Shown piece by piece: positions 57-8,660 of a stretch of 51,282 bases of DNA (positions are counted from its first letter, which is position 1; each line of letters begins with the position of its first letter). A program made the translations under genes and the position numbers. The DNA is from Humidesulfovibrio sp. (GTDB lineage: Bacteria > Desulfobacterota > Desulfovibrionia > Desulfovibrionales > Desulfovibrionaceae). Location: contig NZ_JAVHLD010000021.1 in the NCBI RefSeq assembly GCF_031082295.1, positions 1 through 51,282 of the forward strand, given 5' to 3'. The notes beneath the pieces were generated by a model. It was not told the DNA's origin. It did not search any database and was given only the letters and a program-made list of their open reading frames with translations.

Positions 57-2108
57 ATGAAATCTGTTGGAATTAAGACAAAATTCCTTGTTCCCGCTGT
101 GGCGTTGGTGATCATCGGCTTTGCGGTAGTCATCTGGCTGAACGCATCTCTGACACGCACAAGCATGCAGTCGATGTCGAAAGAAAGCATGACGCTCTTG
201 TCAGAGGCAATTGCGAAAGATCTTGGTGGAGATATCGACATCTCCTACCAGATGCTCAGCTACTGGAGCAAGGAAAGCTTTGTCCGAGAGGTGTTCGCTA
301 ATGGCAATGCAAACCAGGCTGGCGCGCATTTCTCTGAAATTCTGAAAGAGATGGAAGGATCAACACTTGAGTACATCAATATATTTGACCTGAAAGGTGA
401 TTTACTAGCGTCCACGGCGAATACAGCCCCAGGGAAAAAGGTCAACGTCGCTGACCGAGACTATTTCAAGGGAATTGTCGAAGCCGGCAACACCCGTTCC
501 ATCGGCAAGCCTATCCAAAGCCGCACCACAGGCAAGAAGGTTGTCATCCTCGCCCAGAAGATCACTGATGTCGAAGGTGCCATTGTTGGCGTCCTTAGCG
601 CCGCGATCAACCTTGACGCGCTGACGGCTCAGGTCAACGCGATGAAGATCGGCAGCACAGGCTATGTCGCCATTCTTGGCCCTTCCGGCATGACGGTGGC
701 ACATCCCAACAAGGATCTGTTATTGAAGGAAGACCTTGGCAAGACAGAATGGGGCAAGCGCGCTCTTGCAGTTGAATCCACTGATTTTCTAGAATTTAAT
801 GACAACGGTAGCAAGGCTGTTTCCGTTCGCAAGGACAAGACAACCGGGTGGACAATTCTCGTCTTCGCCCCTCTTGAAGACATCGAACAGGCCGCGGCCG
901 CGGCGGCAAAGAAAGGAATGCTGCTGGGCGGCGGCATCGCCCTTGCTCTGGCGATGTTCATCATCTGGCTCGTCAACACAACCGTGGCCAAGCCGGTCTC
1001 GCTCTGCATGGCCTTTTCGTCTGCCGTTGCCGAGGGTGACCTGGACCGCAAGCTTGAGTTCACGAGCGGCGATGAGCTTGGTGTGTTGGCCAATGGTCTG
1101 CGGCACATGGTCATGAAGCTCAAAGAAGGAATGCAAAACGTTTGCGCCAAGGAAGGCGAAGCCCTCAAGATGGCTGAAAAGGCCGAGGAGGCGCTCAAGG
1201 AAGCGCGCATCGCCCAGGAACAGGCAAGCCTGGCGCGCACCCAGGGTCTGAAGGAAGCTGGAACCAAAATGCACGATGTGGCGCAAGGGGTTGAGGCCGT
1301 CTCGGGCGCGCTGGTGCAACAGGTCACGAACATCGAGGGTGGAGCGGACATCCAGAAGGCCCGCACAACGGAAACGGCCACAGCAATGGACGAGATGAAC
1401 GCAACGATTCTTGAGATTTCGCGCAACGCCTCCACAGCCTCACTCGACGCGGATCGTGTGCGCGAAACGGCGCTGAAGGGCAAGGAAGTTGTGAATCATG
1501 CAGTGGAGGCCATCGGCGCGGTGCACAAACTCTCCACAAGCATGAGTGAACAGATGAATGAGCTTGGAGAGAGCGTCAAGGGCATCGACAACATCCTCAA
1601 CGTCATCAACGACATTGCCGACCAGACCAACCTGCTGGCCTTGAACGCAGCCATTGAGGCGGCTCGCGCCGGTGATGCGGGTCGCGGCTTTGCCGTCGTC
1701 GCCGACGAGGTGCGCAAGCTGGCGGAAAAGACCATGGTCGCCACCAAGGAGGTCGGCCAGGCCATCACCTCCGTTCAGAACGGCTCCAGGCAAAGCATTC
1801 AGAATGTAGAGCGGTCAAACCTTGCGATTGAAGAAGCGAACCGGCTTGCCGGGGACTCCATCGCCTCGCTTGAGCAGGTCTTAAGTCTGGCCTCGTCCAC
1901 CTCGGACCAGATTCGGGCCATTGCCACCGCTGCCGAAGAACAGTCCGGCGCCAGCGGCGAGATCGATCACGCCGTCAAGGACATCATGGCCATCGCAGGC
2001 ACCACGCTGGACTCAGTAGAGGAATGCCGCAACACCATCAACAGCCTGACGCGACTCTCCGAAGAGCTGCGCCGCATCATGCAGGAGCTTGAAAACACGG
2101 GAGGCTAG
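57..2108 (+). CDS. Methyl-accepting chemotaxis protein with periplasmic Cache domain
   Basis: Membrane chemoreceptor that passes a periplasmic ligand signal to CheA/CheW. The 683 residues show a first membrane segment at about 10-30, a Cache-type sensor region at about 35-270 (the DRDYFKGIV and [14 protein letters not shown] stretches are typical), a second membrane segment at about 288-307, HAMP at about 308-362, a helical linker, and the MA signalling domain at about 440-680. The conserved hairpin tip ([20 protein letters not shown] and following residues) lies at about 521-551. The C-terminus ends in ELENTGG and has no NWETF-like pentapeptide for tethering CheR. The start is supported by GGAGG 9 bases upstream. 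It is convergent with the HD-GYP regulator gene, and the two stop codons overlap in a shared CTAG. The ligand cannot be read from sequence; dCache receptors commonly bind small organic acids or amino acids. Confidence 0.95.
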
Positions 2109-3193
2109 TCGCGGCACTCGCGCTGGATGTCCTCAATGAGGGCGAAGTTGGCGATGAAAATGTCGTACAACGTCGGGTCGAAATGTGTCCCACGCCCCTG
2201 GGCCATTATCGATACCGCCTTTTCATTGCTGTAGGCATCCTTGTACGGTCGTTTGGTCGTCAGGGCGTCAAAGACATCCGCTATCGCCGCAATGCGCCCG
2301 AAAAGCGGTATGTTAACGCCGGAAAGGCGTTCAGGATAACCGGTTCCGTCCCATTTTTCGTGGTGCGTGGCTGCGATGAGTGCGCCGGCCTCCAAGTATT
2401 TGGAGCTGCTACCGCCCAGAATATTGGCCCCCATCACGGTATGCCGCCGCATGACCTCCCATTCCTGATCATCAAGCTTTCCCGGCTTGAGCAGGATGGC
2501 GTCGGGAATGCCCATCTTTCCGATGTCGTGCATGGGGCTGCTGTTCAATATCAGATCCACCGCGTCCTCATCGAGCCCGAACTGATCGGCGATGACCGCG
2601 CAATAGCGGCTCATGCGATGAATGTGGCTGGCAGTGTCCTCATCCTTGTATTCCGCCGCTGCAGAGAGCTTGTGAATCGTCTCCATGTGCGCCCGCACCG
2701 TTTCAAGCCGCGCGTGCTCCAGTTCGACCAATGTTGCCCGCAGCGCTTTGGTCTTCTCCGAGACCATCTGCTCCAAACGTTGCTGATAACGTTTCACTTC
2801 GTCACGGTAGCCCTTCATGCGCAAGAGCGAAGTCATGCGCACGCTGAGCTCGGTGGAGTCGATGGGCTTGGCGACAAAATCGTTGGCTCCGCATTCAACG
2901 GCCTTAAGGCGGTCCTCCTTTGCCGAAAGCGCCGTCACCATGACAATGGGAATGTCCGAGAGCTTCGGGATTTCGCGTATCGCCTTGGCAACCAAATACC
3001 CATCCATGCCAGGCATCATTATGTCCAGAAGGACGAGATCGATCGTTTCATCTATCAACGACAGCGCCATCTGGCCGGAGTCGGCCGTCACGCACTCCAG
3101 CCCACTGGCCTTAAGCAAACCTTCAAGAACCTTCCGGTTGATGAGTTCATCATCGACAATTAGAATTTTCGCTGGCTTTTCTTCCATGTACAT
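2105..3193 (-). CDS. Response regulator with HD-GYP output domain
   Basis: Two-component response regulator predicted to hydrolyse cyclic di-GMP when phosphorylated. The N-terminal receiver domain (about 8-125) carries the acidic pair near residues 14-15, the phosphoacceptor Asp in the [11 protein letters not shown] motif (about residue 57) and the signalling Lys in VAKP. A helical linker follows (about 130-175), then an HD-GYP domain with HD in SPMHDIGK (about 222-223) and the diagnostic [11 protein letters not shown] motif (about 277-287). All the signature residues are present, so it is probably an active phosphodiesterase. The start is uncertain: ATG at 3193 or 3187, or GTG at 3196, with only a weak ribosome binding site. 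No histidine kinase gene is adjacent, so the partner kinase is unknown. It converges on the chemoreceptor gene and is divergent from the hemerythrin fusion gene. Confidence 0.92.
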
Positions 3194-3490
3194 CACTTCG
3201 CTGGTGCTGTTTTGATTTTATGATTCGTGGCCGGTATATATTTTAATAACCTACACCCAATAGCAACTCGAATTCAATACCGACATGCCATCAAAATCTT
3301 CTATAAATCAATTTCGTAGACAAATACCACTCACCAGGGTAAGGCCTTTGTGGACTTTAAAGCTGCATCGGAATAGATAAGAATTGAACTCTGACTTTCA
3401 TGGTGACTGACAGCTCATGAAAGCCTGCTGACCATGGCGCCAGGCCCCTCCGCATGATGCGGCCTGCACGCCGAAGGCAATAGGGAGCGC
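3194..3490. other. Divergent intergenic region, HD-GYP gene / MBL-hemerythrin gene
   Basis: Non-coding stretch of about 300 bases between two divergently transcribed signalling genes, clearly AT-rich in its left half (for example the TATATATTTTAATAA run near 3235-3250). It must hold both promoters, but I could not identify convincing -35/-10, sigma-54 or sigma-28 elements. Confidence 0.5.
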
Positions 3491-6106
3491 ATGGGTAAAA
3501 TCTCCAAAATCAAGGTTGCTGAAGGGATTTTCTTCGTCAGCGTCCCGGATGCGGATGTCTATATTCTGTGCGGCTGCCCGGCGGACAGCGTCAAGCACCT
3601 CATGAAGCGAGGCTTGATCCAAAACGTCGAGGTGGATGGCGTTTCGTTTGAAACAGGCCCAAACGCCATCCTTCTCTCCGACGAGCTCATCCAGCATGGC
3701 CGTTTCGCCAACCTCTCAGAATTCCCCATCCTACAGATGTTCTACCGACAGGGCATGATTATTCCCGGCCACCCAAACAACACCGGGGTCAAGCCCGCTC
3801 TCATTGGCCTGCGCAAGCAGGTCGAAGCGCAGATGGAGTACATCTACCGCGGCAACTACGGCCTCATTTCTGAAGAAGAGATGCTTGAGGCAGGCGCTTC
3901 GAAGTCCGATGCCAAGGCCTGGATGCGCCTGAAGCTCAAGTTCGCCTTCGGCAAGATTCGCCGCATGGATGAATATGTTGATCTTGTGGTCGTAGAGAAT
4001 GAGCCGCAGGAAATTCGCAACAAGGTTTTTGTGAAGCGCCTCAAGGTGAACCAGTTTGAGATCTCCTACGGCAAGGAATCCGTGCGGGTTGATCTGAACA
4101 CCACAGAGCACTCCCTGTGCAAGCCTTCCTATGTTCTCGGCTTCCACCACATCAAGCGCGACTACTTCGCCGTTCTGCACTCGGGAGAGGGCGACGGCTG
4201 GGATCCCAACCGCCCGGCCATGGCGAGCATCATCATATTCCAGGGCAATGTCTACCTCCTCGACGCCGGACCCAACATCATGCACAGCCTGAATGCTCTT
4301 GGCATCAGCGTCAACGAGATTTCCGGCATCTTCCACACCCACGCCCACGACGATCATTTCTGCGGCCTGCCGGCTCTCATGCGCTCCGACCACCGCATCC
4401 CTTACTACGCCACCAAGCTCGTACGTGCGTCAGTCATGAAAAAGCTCGCGGCCCTGGCCATGACCAGCGAGGAAGAGTTCGACCATTACTTTGAATTTCA
4501 CGACCTTGAGCTCGGCAAGTGGAACGACATCGACACGCTCGAGGTGAAGCCGGTGTTTTCTCCGCACCCGGTGGAGACCACGGTGATGCTCTTCCGCACC
4601 CTTGATCGCAACGGCTACCGGACCTATGCCCACTTTGCGGACATCGCCAGCCTGGGCCTGCTACGCAAGATGATCACCTCCGATCCTGATGCTCCGGGCC
4701 TTTCACAAGAATTGTATGACGAGGTCTACGCCAATTACCAAGAGCCGGTGGACCTTAAGAAACTCGACATAGGGGGCGGCATGATCCACGGCGATGCCGA
4801 GGATTTCGCCCACGACAAATCCGGAAAGATTCTGCTTGCGCACACGGCCCTTCCGCTTACCTACAGGCAGAAGGAGATCGGTTCCGGCGCGCCCTTCGGC
4901 ATGGTCGATGTGCTCATCCCCGCACACCAGGATTACGTTCGATCTTACGCCTACCACTACCTCAACGCCTATTTCCCAACGGTTTCCAGCAGCAAGCTGC
5001 GGGTGTTGCTCAACTGTCCGGTGGTGAAGTTCAACCCCGAGACCCTTATCCTCAAGGCCGGCCGCAAGGCCGATTGCGTACACCTCATCCTCACCGGCCA
5101 GGTGGAGGTGATCCGCACCAAGAGCGGTGTCTACAGCACTTTGACCACTGGCGGCCTTTTGGGCGAATACACGGCGCTCACCAACAAGGGTTCCCTCGAG
5201 ACATACCGCGCCGCCAATTTTGTCCAGGCGTTGCGCATCCCGCTGGACCTCTATGCCATGTTCGTGAAGAACAACGGCCTCTACGAGGAAATGGTTCGCC
5301 TCCAGGACATCCGCAGCTTCCTGTACACAAGCCGCCTCTTCGGCGACGGCCTGACCTGCACTCGCCAGAACGATATCGCCGTCACGATCGGTTCGCATAT
5401 GGAAACAAGCGGCGAAGCCCTCAAACCCTGCACTCAGCCGACGCTTTGCCTTGTCAAATCCGGCAAGGTGGCTCTTTATGTTGGCCAACGCCTCATAGAG
5501 TCCCTCGGCCCTGGCGAGTTCTTCAACGAGAGCACCGTCCTTTTCGACACCCCTTGCCTCTTCAAGGCCAATGCCGCCAAGGGCACAGTCATCTACACCA
5601 TACCCGGCCATGTTATCTCGGATATTCCCATTGTCCGCTGGAAGCTTCTGGAAACCTATGAAAAGCGTCTCGGCAAGACTGTAAGCCACGACTCGGGCGG
5701 GGATTATTTCCAGTGGCATGACGAATACGCGGTCAATGTCAAAGTCATTGATCAGCAGCACATGGAAATCTACGAGTCCGCAAAGGTGCTCTACTCCGCA
5801 TTATTTGACGGGGACAGCACAGGCAATGCAGAAGAATTGTTCCCAAAACTCATTGCCCATACCAACCGGCATTTCAGTACCGAGAACAAACTCATGCAAG
5901 ACACTGGTTACCCAGGTTTCGCCCAGCACCAGAGGAAGCATGAGCAGATACAACAAGCCTTGCAGGAATTCGCCTCGTATTATGCCTCCAAGCGCATGAC
6001 CCCGAAGAAAGAGGTCGGCATTTTCCTCAAGGACTGGGTTATGACACACATACTCACAGAAGATCGGAGGCTTGGCACCTACCTGAATCGACAAGGTGTC
6101 AGCTAG
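3491..6106 (+). CDS. Metallo-beta-lactamase / tandem cNMP-binding-like / hemerythrin fusion protein
   Basis: Probably a soluble oxygen- or redox-responsive sensor; the exact function is unknown. Of 871 residues, about 1-205 is an uncharacterised N-terminal region. A metallo-beta-lactamase fold spans about 215-500 with HTHAHDDH at 282-289, further likely metal ligands His359 (SPHPVE), Asp384 (HFADIAS) and His479 (LIPAHQD). Two cyclic-nucleotide-binding-like barrels follow at about 505-600 and 630-710. A C-terminal bacteriohemerythrin domain (about 738-866) keeps all seven di-iron ligands: His757, His794, Glu798, His813, His817, His853 and Asp858. No signal peptide or membrane segment is seen, so it should be cytoplasmic. 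AGGGAG lies 5 bases before the ATG. The di-iron site predicts reversible O2 binding; whether the barrels bind a nucleotide, and whether the MBL part is an enzyme or a di-iron sensor, is open. Confidence 0.9.
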   Translation: MGKISKIKVAEGIFFVSVPDADVYILCGCPADSVKHLMKRGLIQNVEVDGVSFETGPNAILLSDELIQHGRFANLSEFPILQMFYRQGMIIPGHPNNTGVKPALIGLRKQVEAQMEYIYRGNYGLISEEEMLEAGASKSDAKAWMRLKLKFAFGKIRRMDEYVDLVVVENEPQEIRNKVFVKRLKVNQFEISYGKESVRVDLNTTEHSLCKPSYVLGFHHIKRDYFAVLHSGEGDGWDPNRPAMASIIIFQGNVYLLDAGPNIMHSLNALGISVNEISGIFHTHAHDDHFCGLPALMRSDHRIPYYATKLVRASVMKKLAALAMTSEEEFDHYFEFHDLELGKWNDIDTLEVKPVFSPHPVETTVMLFRTLDRNGYRTYAHFADIASLGLLRKMITSDPDAPGLSQELYDEVYANYQEPVDLKKLDIGGGMIHGDAEDFAHDKSGKILLAHTALPLTYRQKEIGSGAPFGMVDVLIPAHQDYVRSYAYHYLNAYFPTVSSSKLRVLLNCPVVKFNPETLILKAGRKADCVHLILTGQVEVIRTKSGVYSTLTTGGLLGEYTALTNKGSLETYRAANFVQALRIPLDLYAMFVKNNGLYEEMVRLQDIRSFLYTSRLFGDGLTCTRQNDIAVTIGSHMETSGEALKPCTQPTLCLVKSGKVALYVGQRLIESLGPGEFFNESTVLFDTPCLFKANAAKGTVIYTIPGHVISDIPIVRWKLLETYEKRLGKTVSHDSGGDYFQWHDEYAVNVKVIDQQHMEIYESAKVLYSALFDGDSTGNAEELFPKLIAHTNRHFSTENKLMQDTGYPGFAQHQRKHEQIQQALQEFASYYASKRMTPKKEVGIFLKDWVMTHILTEDRRLGTYLNRQGVS

Positions 6107-6479
6107 CCTGACCTTGCGCCCCTTTCCAGCAGACAAATTTTCAATCGTGCCCAAATTGTTCCGCACAAAATTGTCACATACGCCAACGTGCATTGCTGTA
6201 CATTTTACAAAATTGCAACAAAGCTCGCCCCCTCCCCCTGCATGTTTTAGCTATCCACTGAAATAACACGACTTCCTTCTTTGGCCCGATTCTTGATACC
6301 TTTCTTAAATAATGTTTTGGACAGGCGACAGAAACCGTCTGTTCGTAGCGGCCAGGGTTGATTCGGATAGGCCAGTTGAACTACAGTGCCAGCGCAAGCA
6401 AGAGCACAAAAGAATCAGGGCCACATTCCACAATACTGTCAAGGAACACCTAACGCCACACTTACAGGAGTCAGCCACC
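6107..6479 (+). other. Intergenic region and long leader of glnN
   Basis: About 370 bases without a supported gene. The left part is AT-rich and contains three near-repeats of AAATTG (around 6143, 6166 and 6211). A sigma-54-like promoter at 6281-6297 would give a leader of roughly 170 bases before glnN. The leader stays open in the glnN frame from 6312, but the upstream codons show no family similarity and there is no ribosome binding site at 6312. CAGGAG lies at the right distance before the ATG at 6480. Confidence 0.5.
6281..6297 (+). promoter_or_regulatory. Sigma-54-like promoter for glnN
   Basis: TTGGCCCGATTCTTGAT matches the RpoN consensus (TTGGCACG, four bases, TTGCW) in spacing and in the invariant GG at -24, but has A instead of C in the -12 GC pair. 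Its place upstream of a nitrogen-assimilation gene makes it plausible. No enhancer-binding site was recognised. Confidence 0.45.
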
Positions 6480-8660
6480 ATGAGCGGAATCCAGGCACGT
6501 CTGAACGCCATCTCGGCAGTCATCAATTACAAACCGGCGCACGCCCCCCTCAACTACCACGACACCAAGCCCACCGACATTTTTGGCGCCAACGTCTTCA
6601 GCGACAAGGTGATGAAAGAGCGCCTGCCGAAGGCTGTCTACAAGTCCCTGCAGAAGACCATCGAACTTGGTGAGAAACTGGACGCCTCCATTGCTGACGT
6701 GGTCGCAAACACCATGAAGGACTGGGCCATTGAGAAAGGCGCGACGCACTTCACCCACGTGTTCTACCCGCTCACCGGCATGACCGCCGAAAAACACGAC
6801 GCGTTCCTGGTGCCCGACGGCAAGGGCGGCGCCATCGCCGAATTCAGCGGCAAACTGCTGATCCAGGGCGAGCCCGACGCCTCCAGCTTCCCCTCCGGCG
6901 GCCTGCGCTCCACCTTCGAAGCCCGCGGCTACACCGCCTGGGACGTGACGAGCCCTGCCTACATCCTTGAGAACCCCAACGGCACCTTCCTGTGCATCCC
7001 CACCGCGTTCCTCTCCTGGACCGGCGAGGCGCTTGACAAGAAGACCCCGCTGCTGCGCTCCAACCAGGCCCTGAACAAGCAGGCCAAACGCGTCCTCAAG
7101 CTTTTCGGAGTCGAGTCCAAGCTGCCCATCACCTCCTTTGCCGGTCCTGAGCAGGAGTACTTCCTCATCGACCGCAACTTCGTGTTCTCCCGTCCCGACC
7201 TGCTTATCGCGGGCCGCTCCCTCTTCGGCGCCAAGTCCGCCAAGGGCCAGGAGTTCGAGGACCAGTACTTCGGCGTGGTTCCCCGCCGCGTGCTGTCTTT
7301 CATGATGGAAGTTGAGCGCGAGCTGTTCAAGCTTGGCGTGCCCGTCAAGACCCGCCACAACGAAGTCGCGCCGAGCCAGTTCGAGATCGCGCCCATCTAC
7401 GAGGTCGGCAATCTGGCCACCGACCACAACCAGATGGTCATGACCACCCTGCGCAGCGTGGCCAAGCGCTACGGCATGATCTGCCTGCTGCACGAAAAGC
7501 CTTTCTCCGGCATCAACGGCTCCGGCAAACACCTCAACTACTCCATCGGCAACGCCGAGCTGGGCAGCCTGTACGATCCGGGCGACACCCCGCACGACAA
7601 CGCCCAGTTCCTGGTCTTCTGCGCCGCCGCCATCCGCGCCCTGCACAAGTACGGCGCCATGCTTCGCGCCACCGTCGCCACCGCCTCCAATGATCACCGC
7701 CTGGGCGCCAACGAGGCTCCTCCGGCCATCATGTCCATGTACCTTGGCGAGCAGCTGGCCGACGTGTTCGACCAGATCAAGAAAGGCAAGCTCAAGGACT
7801 CCAAGAGCAAGGGTGTCATGAGCGTCGGTGTGGATACCCTGCCTCCGCTGCCCATGGATCCGGGCGACCGCAACCGCACCAGCCCCTTCGCCTTCACCGG
7901 AAACCGCTTCGAGTTCCGCGCCGTGGGCTCCTCCCAGTCCATCGCCGGCTCCCTGGTGGCCCTGAACACCATGATGGCCGAGTCCCTCGACTACATCGCC
8001 ACCGAGCTTGAGAAGGCCACCAAGGGCGACAGCAAGAAGCTCAACGCCGCCGTGCAGTCCCTGCTCCAGAAGATCGTGAAGGAGCATGACGCCATCGTGT
8101 TCAACGGCGACGGCTACTCCGAGGCTTGGCACAAGGAAGCGGCCAAGCGCGGCCTGCCCAACCTGAAGACCACCCCCGAAGCTCTGCCCGTGCTGACCAC
8201 CAAGCCCGTGGTTGAACTGTTCACCAAGTACGGCGTCCTCTCAGAGGCCGAGCTCAAGAGCCGCGAGGAAATCTACCTCGAGATGTACGCCAAGACCCTG
8301 AAGACCGAAGCCGCCCTGATGGTCCGCATGGCCACCACCATCATCTTCCCCGCCGCCATGCGCTACCAGAGCGAACTCGCCGCCGCCTGCGCCAACCTGA
8401 AGGCCATTGGCAAGGATTACAAGATGGGCGCCCTCGAAGAGGTTACCGCCAAGCTGCGCGCCCTGCAGACGGCCGTTGCCAAACTGGAGAAGCTCGCCGC
8501 GCATGAGGCCAAGAGCACCCATGCCGAGGCCAAGCACCTCTGCGACAAGGTTCTGCCCGCCATGAACGAAGTGCGCAGCTACGCCGACGCCCTTGAAACC
8601 ATCGTGGCCGACGACCTGTGGTCGCTGCCCAGCTACCAGGAAATGCTGTTCATCCGCTAA
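6480..8660 (+). CDS. glnN: Glutamine synthetase type III
   Basis: ATP-dependent condensation of ammonium and glutamate to glutamine; the large GSIII class, unlike the roughly 470-residue GSI. The 726 residues match the family length. Recognisable motifs are the N-terminal [19 protein letters not shown] block (about 138-157), [10 protein letters not shown] (about 221-230) with metal-binding Glu residues, [14 protein letters not shown] (about 291-304), [10 protein letters not shown] (about 346) and the active-site [18 protein letters not shown] (about 462-479), followed by the C-terminal helical GSIII extension. The ATG at 6480 is preceded by CAGGAG. It is monocistronic, between a sigma-54-like promoter and a strong terminator, which suggests nitrogen control. 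Codon use is strongly biased (nearly all AAG, CTG, ATC), as expected for a highly expressed gene. Confidence 0.97.

Follow-up and report, generated by a model that had tools for sequence, protein, structure and literature searches.

A bacterial protein family joining a complete metallo-beta-lactamase site, two cyclic-nucleotide-type barrels and a hemerythrin: a possible oxygen- or redox-gated phosphodiesterase

Results

A five-domain protein in one reading frame

We analyzed a 51,282-nucleotide stretch of DNA from Humidesulfovibrio sp. (contig NZ_JAVHLD010000021.1 of assembly GCF_031082295.1; hereafter the window) and found that a gene at 3491..6106 encodes an 871-residue protein with the domain order pseudo-metallo-beta-lactamase (pseudo-MBL), MBL, cyclic-nucleotide-binding domain (CNBD), CNBD and hemerythrin. 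We tentatively read this protein as a redox- or O2-gated class-II-type MBL phosphodiesterase, a soluble signalling enzyme of which we infer the substrate, the gating and the ligand. The structural description alone (fold, domains and metal sites, all computed) is very likely correct.

The open reading frame (ORF) runs from an ATG at 3491 to a stop codon at 6104-6106 and follows a Shine-Dalgarno-like AGGGAG (3482..3487) read directly from the sequence; these and all features of the gene given below lie on the plus strand. A promoter scan returned no promoter-like site, and terminator-like sites were no more frequent than expected by chance. Pfam matches above the curated cut-offs were Lactamase_B_2 (PF12706; 35.4 bits against a cut-off of 27, best stretch 255-361), Lactamase_B (31.9 bits, best stretch 246-316), cNMP_binding (64.9 bits in two stretches, the best being 512-591) and Hemerythrin (39 bits against a cut-off of 25.3, residues 750-862). 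An AlphaFold2 model of the full chain, built from 64 input sequences, reached a mean predicted local distance difference test score (pLDDT) of 89.6 and a predicted TM-score of 0.89. An initial annotation of this DNA had described an MBL fold, two barrels resembling cyclic nucleoside monophosphate (cNMP) domains and a hemerythrin in one protein, with the seven hemerythrin iron ligands and the MBL metal motif in place. Pfam, NCBIfam and the AlphaFold2 model bear this out, and we confirm that the four domains share one real ORF and that both metal-ligand sets are complete.

The genome has a full-length paralogue, 56% identical, on a different contig (L002 1492-4113 on C72), and a hemerythrin follows the same core in 74 of the best 80 related loci, which together rule out a chance fusion or an assembly artefact. 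A sequence search of the Protein Data Bank returned as nearest matches only proteins that cover parts of the chain, namely DcrH, a bacteriohemerythrin, PKG, the PKA regulatory subunit (PKA-R) and MBL proteins (among them an arylsulfatase and ELAC1).

The MBL domain has a complete two-metal site

The active-type MBL domain spans residues 216-478 (4136..4924), as assigned from Lactamase_B_2 and a fold match to Apyc1. Its metal motif T283-H284-A285-H286-D287-D288-H289 (4337..4357) provides four ligands (H284, H286, D288 and H289) that are identical in 86 of 86 relatives and in all rows of a 128-row alignment of 122 near and six distant relatives. The set is completed by H359 (4565..4567), by D384 (4640..4642), which by family analogy is probably the bridging ligand, and by H451 (4841..4843). 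H433 (4787..4789), in a GGGxIHG motif, is a candidate catalytic histidine. None of these eight marker residues varies in the 128 rows.

Comparison of residues 226-477 with known structures in VIA-align gave Apyc1 as the best match (Z 24.9, root-mean-square deviation (rmsd) 2.5, 221 residues aligned; further Apyc1 structures at 24.8 and 24.1), followed by YhfI (22.9), PhnP (22.0), RNase Z 1y44 (22.0) and yeast PDE1 (19.4), with PhnP-family enzymes, PqqB, RNase Z and arylsulfatase also near. A [T/S]HXHXDH motif in a PF12706 protein is described as the mark of the atypical class-II phosphodiesterase (PDE) group, X tending to be hydrophobic or small (PMC9293780). The query has THAHDDH; among the 122 near relatives residue 283 is Thr in 121 and Ser in one, the ligands are kept in all 122, and the first X is Ala, Ser, Cys or Gly in 121 and Val in one. 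Rv1339, YhfI, Corynebacterium glutamicum CpdA and Apyc1 share with the query the MBL fold, PF12706 and this motif, and two of them, Apyc1 and YhfI, are among its nearest folds.

The initial annotation had also suggested kinship to ODP, the MBL-fold oxygen sensor linked to chemotaxis. ODP and flavodiiron MBL proteins resemble the query in having an MBL fold with two metals but differ from it in the metal motif, since flavodiiron/ODP-type domains carry Glu at the second ligand position, where the query has His286 (kept in 86 of 86 relatives). The five families matched in the Pfam scan likewise include neither ODP nor flavodiiron proteins, and phosphodiesterases head the fold comparison. An ODP-type MBL was rejected on the metal motif and the family scan, and the proposed kinship is not supported. 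That the MBL domain nevertheless binds O2 at an ODP-like di-iron site, making the protein a double O2 sensor, is highly improbable: the Treponema denticola ODP is an oxygen-binding di-iron protein and an O2 sensor for chemotaxis (PMC7666581), and a chemoreceptor gene lies two genes upstream of ours, but a chemoreceptor domain was found in at most one of 64 scanned neighbours of the relatives.

A degenerate MBL-fold domain precedes the active one

The N-terminus of about 200 residues, which the initial annotation had left unassigned, turned out to match MBL-fold proteins. Residues 1-215 have no Pfam match and the domain (residues 1-212, 3491..4126) has no metal motif; modelled alone, it reached a pLDDT of 85.1. 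The best VIA-align match to this model had Z 11.9 (rmsd 4.9, 160 residues aligned), and the 50 listed rows are, judging in part by their titles, MBL-fold proteins. In Foldseek the best E was 5e-05, to Apyc1, and the three chains at E <= 0.001 were all Apyc1, with the caveat that non-MBL chains appear from E 0.1 on.

An alignment with human ELAC2 spans residues 1 to 477 (Z 21.1, rmsd 4.0, 378 residues aligned) and so points to a second MBL domain in the N-terminus. Long-form RNase Z, of which ELAC2 is an example, likewise has a degenerate and then an active MBL domain in tandem, as judged by fold, but it is an RNA-processing enzyme and has no CNBD or hemerythrin. We therefore weighed a redox-regulated RNA-processing nuclease of the RNase Z kind, which also draws on a partial match to the NCBIfam RNase_Z model (E 1.2e-11; 44.3 bits against a cut-off of 292.95, so that the family model is not reached). 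This is rather unlikely, as the active domain scores higher with Apyc1 than with RNase Z 1y44, tandem CNBDs suit a nucleotide messenger better than RNA, and presence of the core is patchy (at least 16 of 297 genomes of the class).

Returning to a phosphodiesterase, one study groups Apyc1 with YhfI, PDE1 and RNase Z as class II-type MBL homodimers that bear an HxHxDH motif, and reports that catalysis by Apyc1 needs residues from the opposing protomer (PMC9117128). Apyc1 and YhfI are homodimers, whereas the query has a second MBL-fold domain fused in cis and an invariant Asp before the DH of the motif. By analogy with the opposing protomer in Apyc1, the N-terminal domain could supply partner residues to the active MBL domain. 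E77-F78-P79, P30 and K35 are conserved in near and distant relatives; E77, Y85, Y117, R120 and Y123 are strongly conserved in near relatives, and of these the six distant relatives share E77 only.

The tandem barrels have lost the phosphate-binding arginine

CNBD1 (residues 500-595, 4988..5275) was assigned from the cNMP_binding match at 512-591 and Foldseek, and CNBD2 (residues 622-712, 5354..5626) from the second cNMP_binding stretch and a match at 5441-5617 in a scan of the own genome. The top Foldseek matches of the barrels among the 50 rows listed were the tandem CNB domains of PKA and PKG, and the profiles of CNBD1 and CNBD2 match each other with E 8.4e-14.

In a register set by eye against the PKA consensus, the phosphate-binding Arg falls nine positions past the cassette Glu. 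This place is taken by S568 in CNBD1 (5192..5194) and C689 in CNBD2 (5555..5557). The CNBD1 Arg is present in none of the 82 near relatives with hemerythrin, none of the 40 without it and three of the six distant relatives. For CNBD2, counting by alignment column gives Arg in 10 of 122 near relatives, two among the 82 that carry hemerythrin and eight among the 40 that do not; counting by motif gives 0 of 122, and four of the six distant relatives have it. Some distant relatives keep a canonical PR[TN]A in the barrels. With the phosphate-binding Arg absent, the usual cyclic-nucleotide-binding residues are incomplete, and both barrels look like worn-down cyclic-nucleotide sensors. The initial annotation had named a lack of functional residues in the barrels or the MBL site as grounds against its reading; this applies in part, since the barrels have the fold but not this Arg, while the MBL site is intact.

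The known proteins closest in layout are Dictyostelium GbpA and GbpB (class IIb), which are cytosolic and, like the query, place an MBL catalytic domain before two CNBDs; in these, binding of cyclic nucleotides to the CNBDs is described as activating the MBL domain (PMC11988041). GbpA and GbpB differ from the query in that their CNBDs bind cGMP or cAMP, whereas the query has no phosphate-binding Arg, and in that the query has a degenerate MBL domain in front and a hemerythrin behind. Because the CNBD ligand residues depart from the usual cyclic-nucleotide-binding set, we do not file the query as GbpA/B-type, and the comparison is one of layout, not of sequence. It is unlikely, though it deserves weighing, that the barrels still bind a cyclic nucleotide without Arg and activate the MBL domain as in GbpA/GbpB, with hemerythrin merely tuning the response. 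The shared domain order favors this, as do the cassette residues Glu559 and Glu680, mostly kept (77 and 78 of 82 hemerythrin-bearing rows), and CNBD1 Thr571 and Arg573, nearly invariant (82 and 80 of 82). It is opposed by the absence of the CNBD1 Arg from all 122 near relatives and by trypanosome PKA-R, in which cAMP binding is lost where this Arg is replaced and a nearby Ala is changed to Glu (PMC10959531).

The same trypanosome proteins suggest another ligand. If the ligand of the barrels were uncharged, for example a purine nucleoside as in trypanosomatid PKA regulatory subunits, the protein would integrate O2 and a metabolite; we regard this as quite improbable. Trypanosoma PKA-R structures stand at Foldseek ranks 3-6 and likewise have no such Arg (PMC10959531), but canonical PKA-R structures rank equally high, and the Glu that defines nucleoside binding, placed two positions past the cassette Glu, is not usual in hemerythrin-bearing rows, in which CNBD1 has mostly Ser, Thr or Ala and CNBD2 most often Thr or Ser. 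A trypanosome-type purine-nucleoside pocket was set aside on this ground and stays a weak rival.

The hemerythrin tail carries all seven iron ligands

A helix of residues 713-731 (5627..5683) in the AlphaFold2 model links CNBD2 to a four-helix hemerythrin domain of residues 740-867 (5708..6091), assigned from NCBIfam, a DcrH fold match and its ligands. The NCBIfam bacteriohemerythrin model NF033749 scores 101.7 bits against a cut-off of 84, and residues 736-871 match the DcrH hemerythrin with Z 19.7 in VIA-align (rmsd 1.9, 133 residues aligned). The seven ligands H757, H794, E798, H813, H817, H853 and D858 (five His, one Glu and one Asp) are complete here and in 68 of 82 hemerythrin-bearing rows. 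Gln replaces H813 in six such rows, the paralogue of the same genome among them, and the Desulfonema magnum copy has Asp in place of H853. The family model and the ligand set, both read from sequence, agree with those of bacteriohemerythrin-domain sensors, and a response of the di-iron site to O2 or redox state is predicted.

We also considered that the hemerythrin does no signalling and scavenges O2 or iron, giving local protection to the cell or its enzyme. The tail comes and goes while the MBL residues stay unchanged, and seven further hemerythrin-like places exist in the genome, five being in open frames of under 210 residues; both facts would suit scavenging. This alternative appears unlikely, given that the ligands are complete in most tail bearers across distant groups and that a helix joins the tail directly to CNBD2. 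For a sensor there is a precedent in Bhr-HD-GYP from Ferrovum sp., described as having two di-iron sites per subunit and as active when ferrous and inactive when ferric (PMC9388753). The combined di-metal oxygen or redox sensor of the initial annotation is plausible in the light of this two-di-iron precedent, and what falls away is the ODP type of its MBL part.

The family is widespread and the tail is optional

Scanning named prokaryote genomes with two family peptides yielded at least 531 confirmed relatives, of which the best 80 loci were kept. Six of these have no hemerythrin, and one of the 74 with it (L057) is cut by a contig end; as only the best 80 were kept, hemerythrin-bearing proteins near the query are over-represented. 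The domain order, called unusual in the initial annotation, is therefore not so: the family is widespread in bacteria and its architecture is common, not rare. The kept loci come from Desulfovibrionaceae, Desulfobacterales, Magnetospirillum and Paramagnetospirillum isolates, Magnetococcales, Betaproteobacteria, Campylobacterota, Nitrospirota, Planctomycetota and others, and since many are from metagenome-assembled genomes, single odd placements may be mis-binned contigs. The search for proteins of the same domain order that the initial annotation proposed thus produced many homologues, and no characterised member of the family was found in the open-licence literature. A survey of hemerythrins reports 56 domain architectures (PMC4919030); the words 'lactamase', 'cyclic' and 'cNMP' do not occur in its main text, and its list of architectures is a figure.

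Within the window's family, 11 of 99 genomes matched a query made of the N-terminal and MBL domains (E <= 1e-10), as did 46 of 395 in its phylum (E <= 1e-5), the latter mostly over short MBL stretches only. In the class, 15 of the at least 16 genomes with the core also have the hemerythrin, a count that excludes eight genomes matching the hemerythrin part only, and 10 of the 13 listed genomes of the same genus hold the core. A wider profile found the core in at least 11 of 390 genomes of the phylum, and one more over the barrels only. Only two to three candidates per genome were scored in the class and phylum scans (297 and 390 genomes), so these genome counts are lower bounds. Six of seven searched genomes of named loci have two copies (G687, G690 and G746-G749, of magnetospirillum type), and in G687 and G690 the second copy ends before the hemerythrin. 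In the phylum of the SAR324 genome G691 (G691 and G694-G744), relatives at E <= 1e-40 turn up in 49 of 52 genomes, and hemerythrin occurs in 2 of 29 loci (L177-L205). These genomes also include open frames of about 480 residues that match the N-terminal and MBL domains only. Outside the window's family but within its phylum, six distant proteins have the N-terminal domain, MBL and CNBDs and no tail, L026 being 21% identical to the query.

Two further variants were seen: L022 1033-3693 has a response-regulator receiver domain fused N-terminally and no hemerythrin, and L171, a minus-strand open frame, has a Zn_protease-like domain (PF05618) as C-terminal module instead of hemerythrin. A usable open frame was obtained from 62 of the 66 loci L153-L218; partial matches (L169, L173 and L217) and, as duplicates over a 400-residue stretch, 19 of 147 rows were left out before the 128-row alignment. 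On a quick LG+G4 tree of 101 rows (27 of the 128 left out for over 85% identity or shortness; a long-branch warning applies where the distant group joins), the hemerythrin label changes eight times, at least four of these changes being forced by well-supported branches. With the root and direction of the tree undecided, a single gain followed by several losses is no less possible than several gains; in either case the tail behaves as an optional module. Spread on plasmids was rejected, as a search of the plasmid collection gave no match.

Genome context

Two genes upstream in the window lies a dCache chemoreceptor (57-2108, +), followed by a convergent HD-GYP response regulator (2105-3196, -), and a type III glutamine synthetase (6312-8660, +) lies directly downstream. 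Similar chemoreceptors adjoin the gene in close relatives, and the glutamine synthetase adjoins it in six close relatives. In L084, L102, L116 and L124 (Rhodospirillaceae-type) the first downstream genes, on the same strand, encode small proteins of about 180 residues that are related to one another and may be membrane proteins. Signalling proteins form a mixed cluster in 16 loci, at scattered places, and response-regulator domains are the most frequent Pfam family among the neighbours (6 of the 64 scanned, out of 73 listed); neighbour ORFs were picked by length, so that some are antisense, and the core was not found in 11 of the 80 loci. A conserved operon was rejected, the recurrences being local only. 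The own genome has many genes for cyclic-nucleotide signalling: six Guanylate_cyc (class III cyclase) matches exceed the cut-off, and cNMP_binding occurs at 14 places, four of these within the query and its paralogue. A cyclic-nucleotide substrate would thus be available.

Discussion

The proposed mechanism is as follows. The second MBL domain would be a two-metal class-II-type phosphodiesterase, most likely acting on a 3',5'-cyclic mononucleotide, and the degenerate N-terminal domain may replace the second protomer of the homodimeric MBL phosphodiesterases, in the manner of long-form RNase Z. Between enzyme and tail, the tandem CNBDs may form an allosteric relay; having lost the cyclic-phosphate contact in this subfamily, they would transmit strain only or bind another ligand. 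The hemerythrin would be the input: O2 binding at the di-iron site, or oxidation of that site as in Bhr-HD-GYP, would alter the packing of the CNBDs. The altered packing would in turn switch hydrolysis on or, if the gating runs the other way, off, and tie a second messenger to oxygen or redox state. Hemerythrin redox control has precedent for both a phosphodiesterase and a diguanylate cyclase (PMC9388753). Bhr-HD-GYP is like the query in fusing a hemerythrin to a metal phosphodiesterase with two di-metal sites per chain, and unlike it in having an HD-GYP domain acting on c-di-GMP, an N-terminal hemerythrin and no CNBDs.

Several results weigh against this gated phosphodiesterase. PqqB, RNase Z and arylsulfatase score only 2-3 Z units under Apyc1, so that the fold alone gives no substrate. 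The second X of the metal motif, Asp287, is Asp in all 122 near relatives and departs from the small or hydrophobic tendency of the atypical class-II PDEs. The curated Apyc1 model scores 16.6 bits against a cut-off of 50 and the NCBIfam cyclic-nucleotide phosphodiesterase model NF041851 15.9 against 400, both far under. Profiles of the N-terminal and active MBL domains show no sequence similarity (hhalign E 0.2-0.29; an E of 3.6e-07 between the two stretches reflects merely their 15-column overlap). We therefore rejected the pair as a proven sequence-level duplication, and the MBL assignment of the N-terminal domain rests on structure. One or more hemerythrin ligands are missing from 14 of 82 tail-bearing rows. 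The CNBD1 Arg is absent from near relatives whether or not they have the tail, which therefore does not account for the loss, and a tie between Arg loss and hemerythrin gain was rejected. Finally, no neighbour gene recurs across the family.

With these points in the balance, the family probably cuts a small nucleotide-type signal while the hemerythrin tail reads the oxygen or redox state, and by analogy the protein looks like a GbpA/GbpB with a hemerythrin sensor added. Less securely, and with some doubt, we suggest that the whole family consists of oxygen- or redox-gated cNMP phosphodiesterases in which a GbpA/B-like ancestor lost CNBD ligand binding and kept the barrels as a passive relay, the signal being given by exchangeable modules (hemerythrin, Zn_protease-like or none, and in one case an N-terminal receiver). 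We found no description of an oxygen- or redox-gated cNMP phosphodiesterase family of this build in the open-licence literature.

According to a 2022 review, no sensor phosphodiesterase with a hemerythrin other than Bhr-HD-GYP was known at the time (PMC9388753). If our reading is true, the present family would be a second kind of hemerythrin phosphodiesterase and the first outside HD-GYP, with an unrelated catalytic fold and probably another messenger. Its members with and without the barrel Arg, and with and without the tail, form a natural series for studying how a CNBD changes from ligand sensor to relay. The family occurs in isolates for which oxygen sensing matters, such as Desulfonema magnum and several magnetospirilla, and would, if the reading holds, link cNMP turnover with O2 sensing in both sulfate reducers and magnetospirilla.

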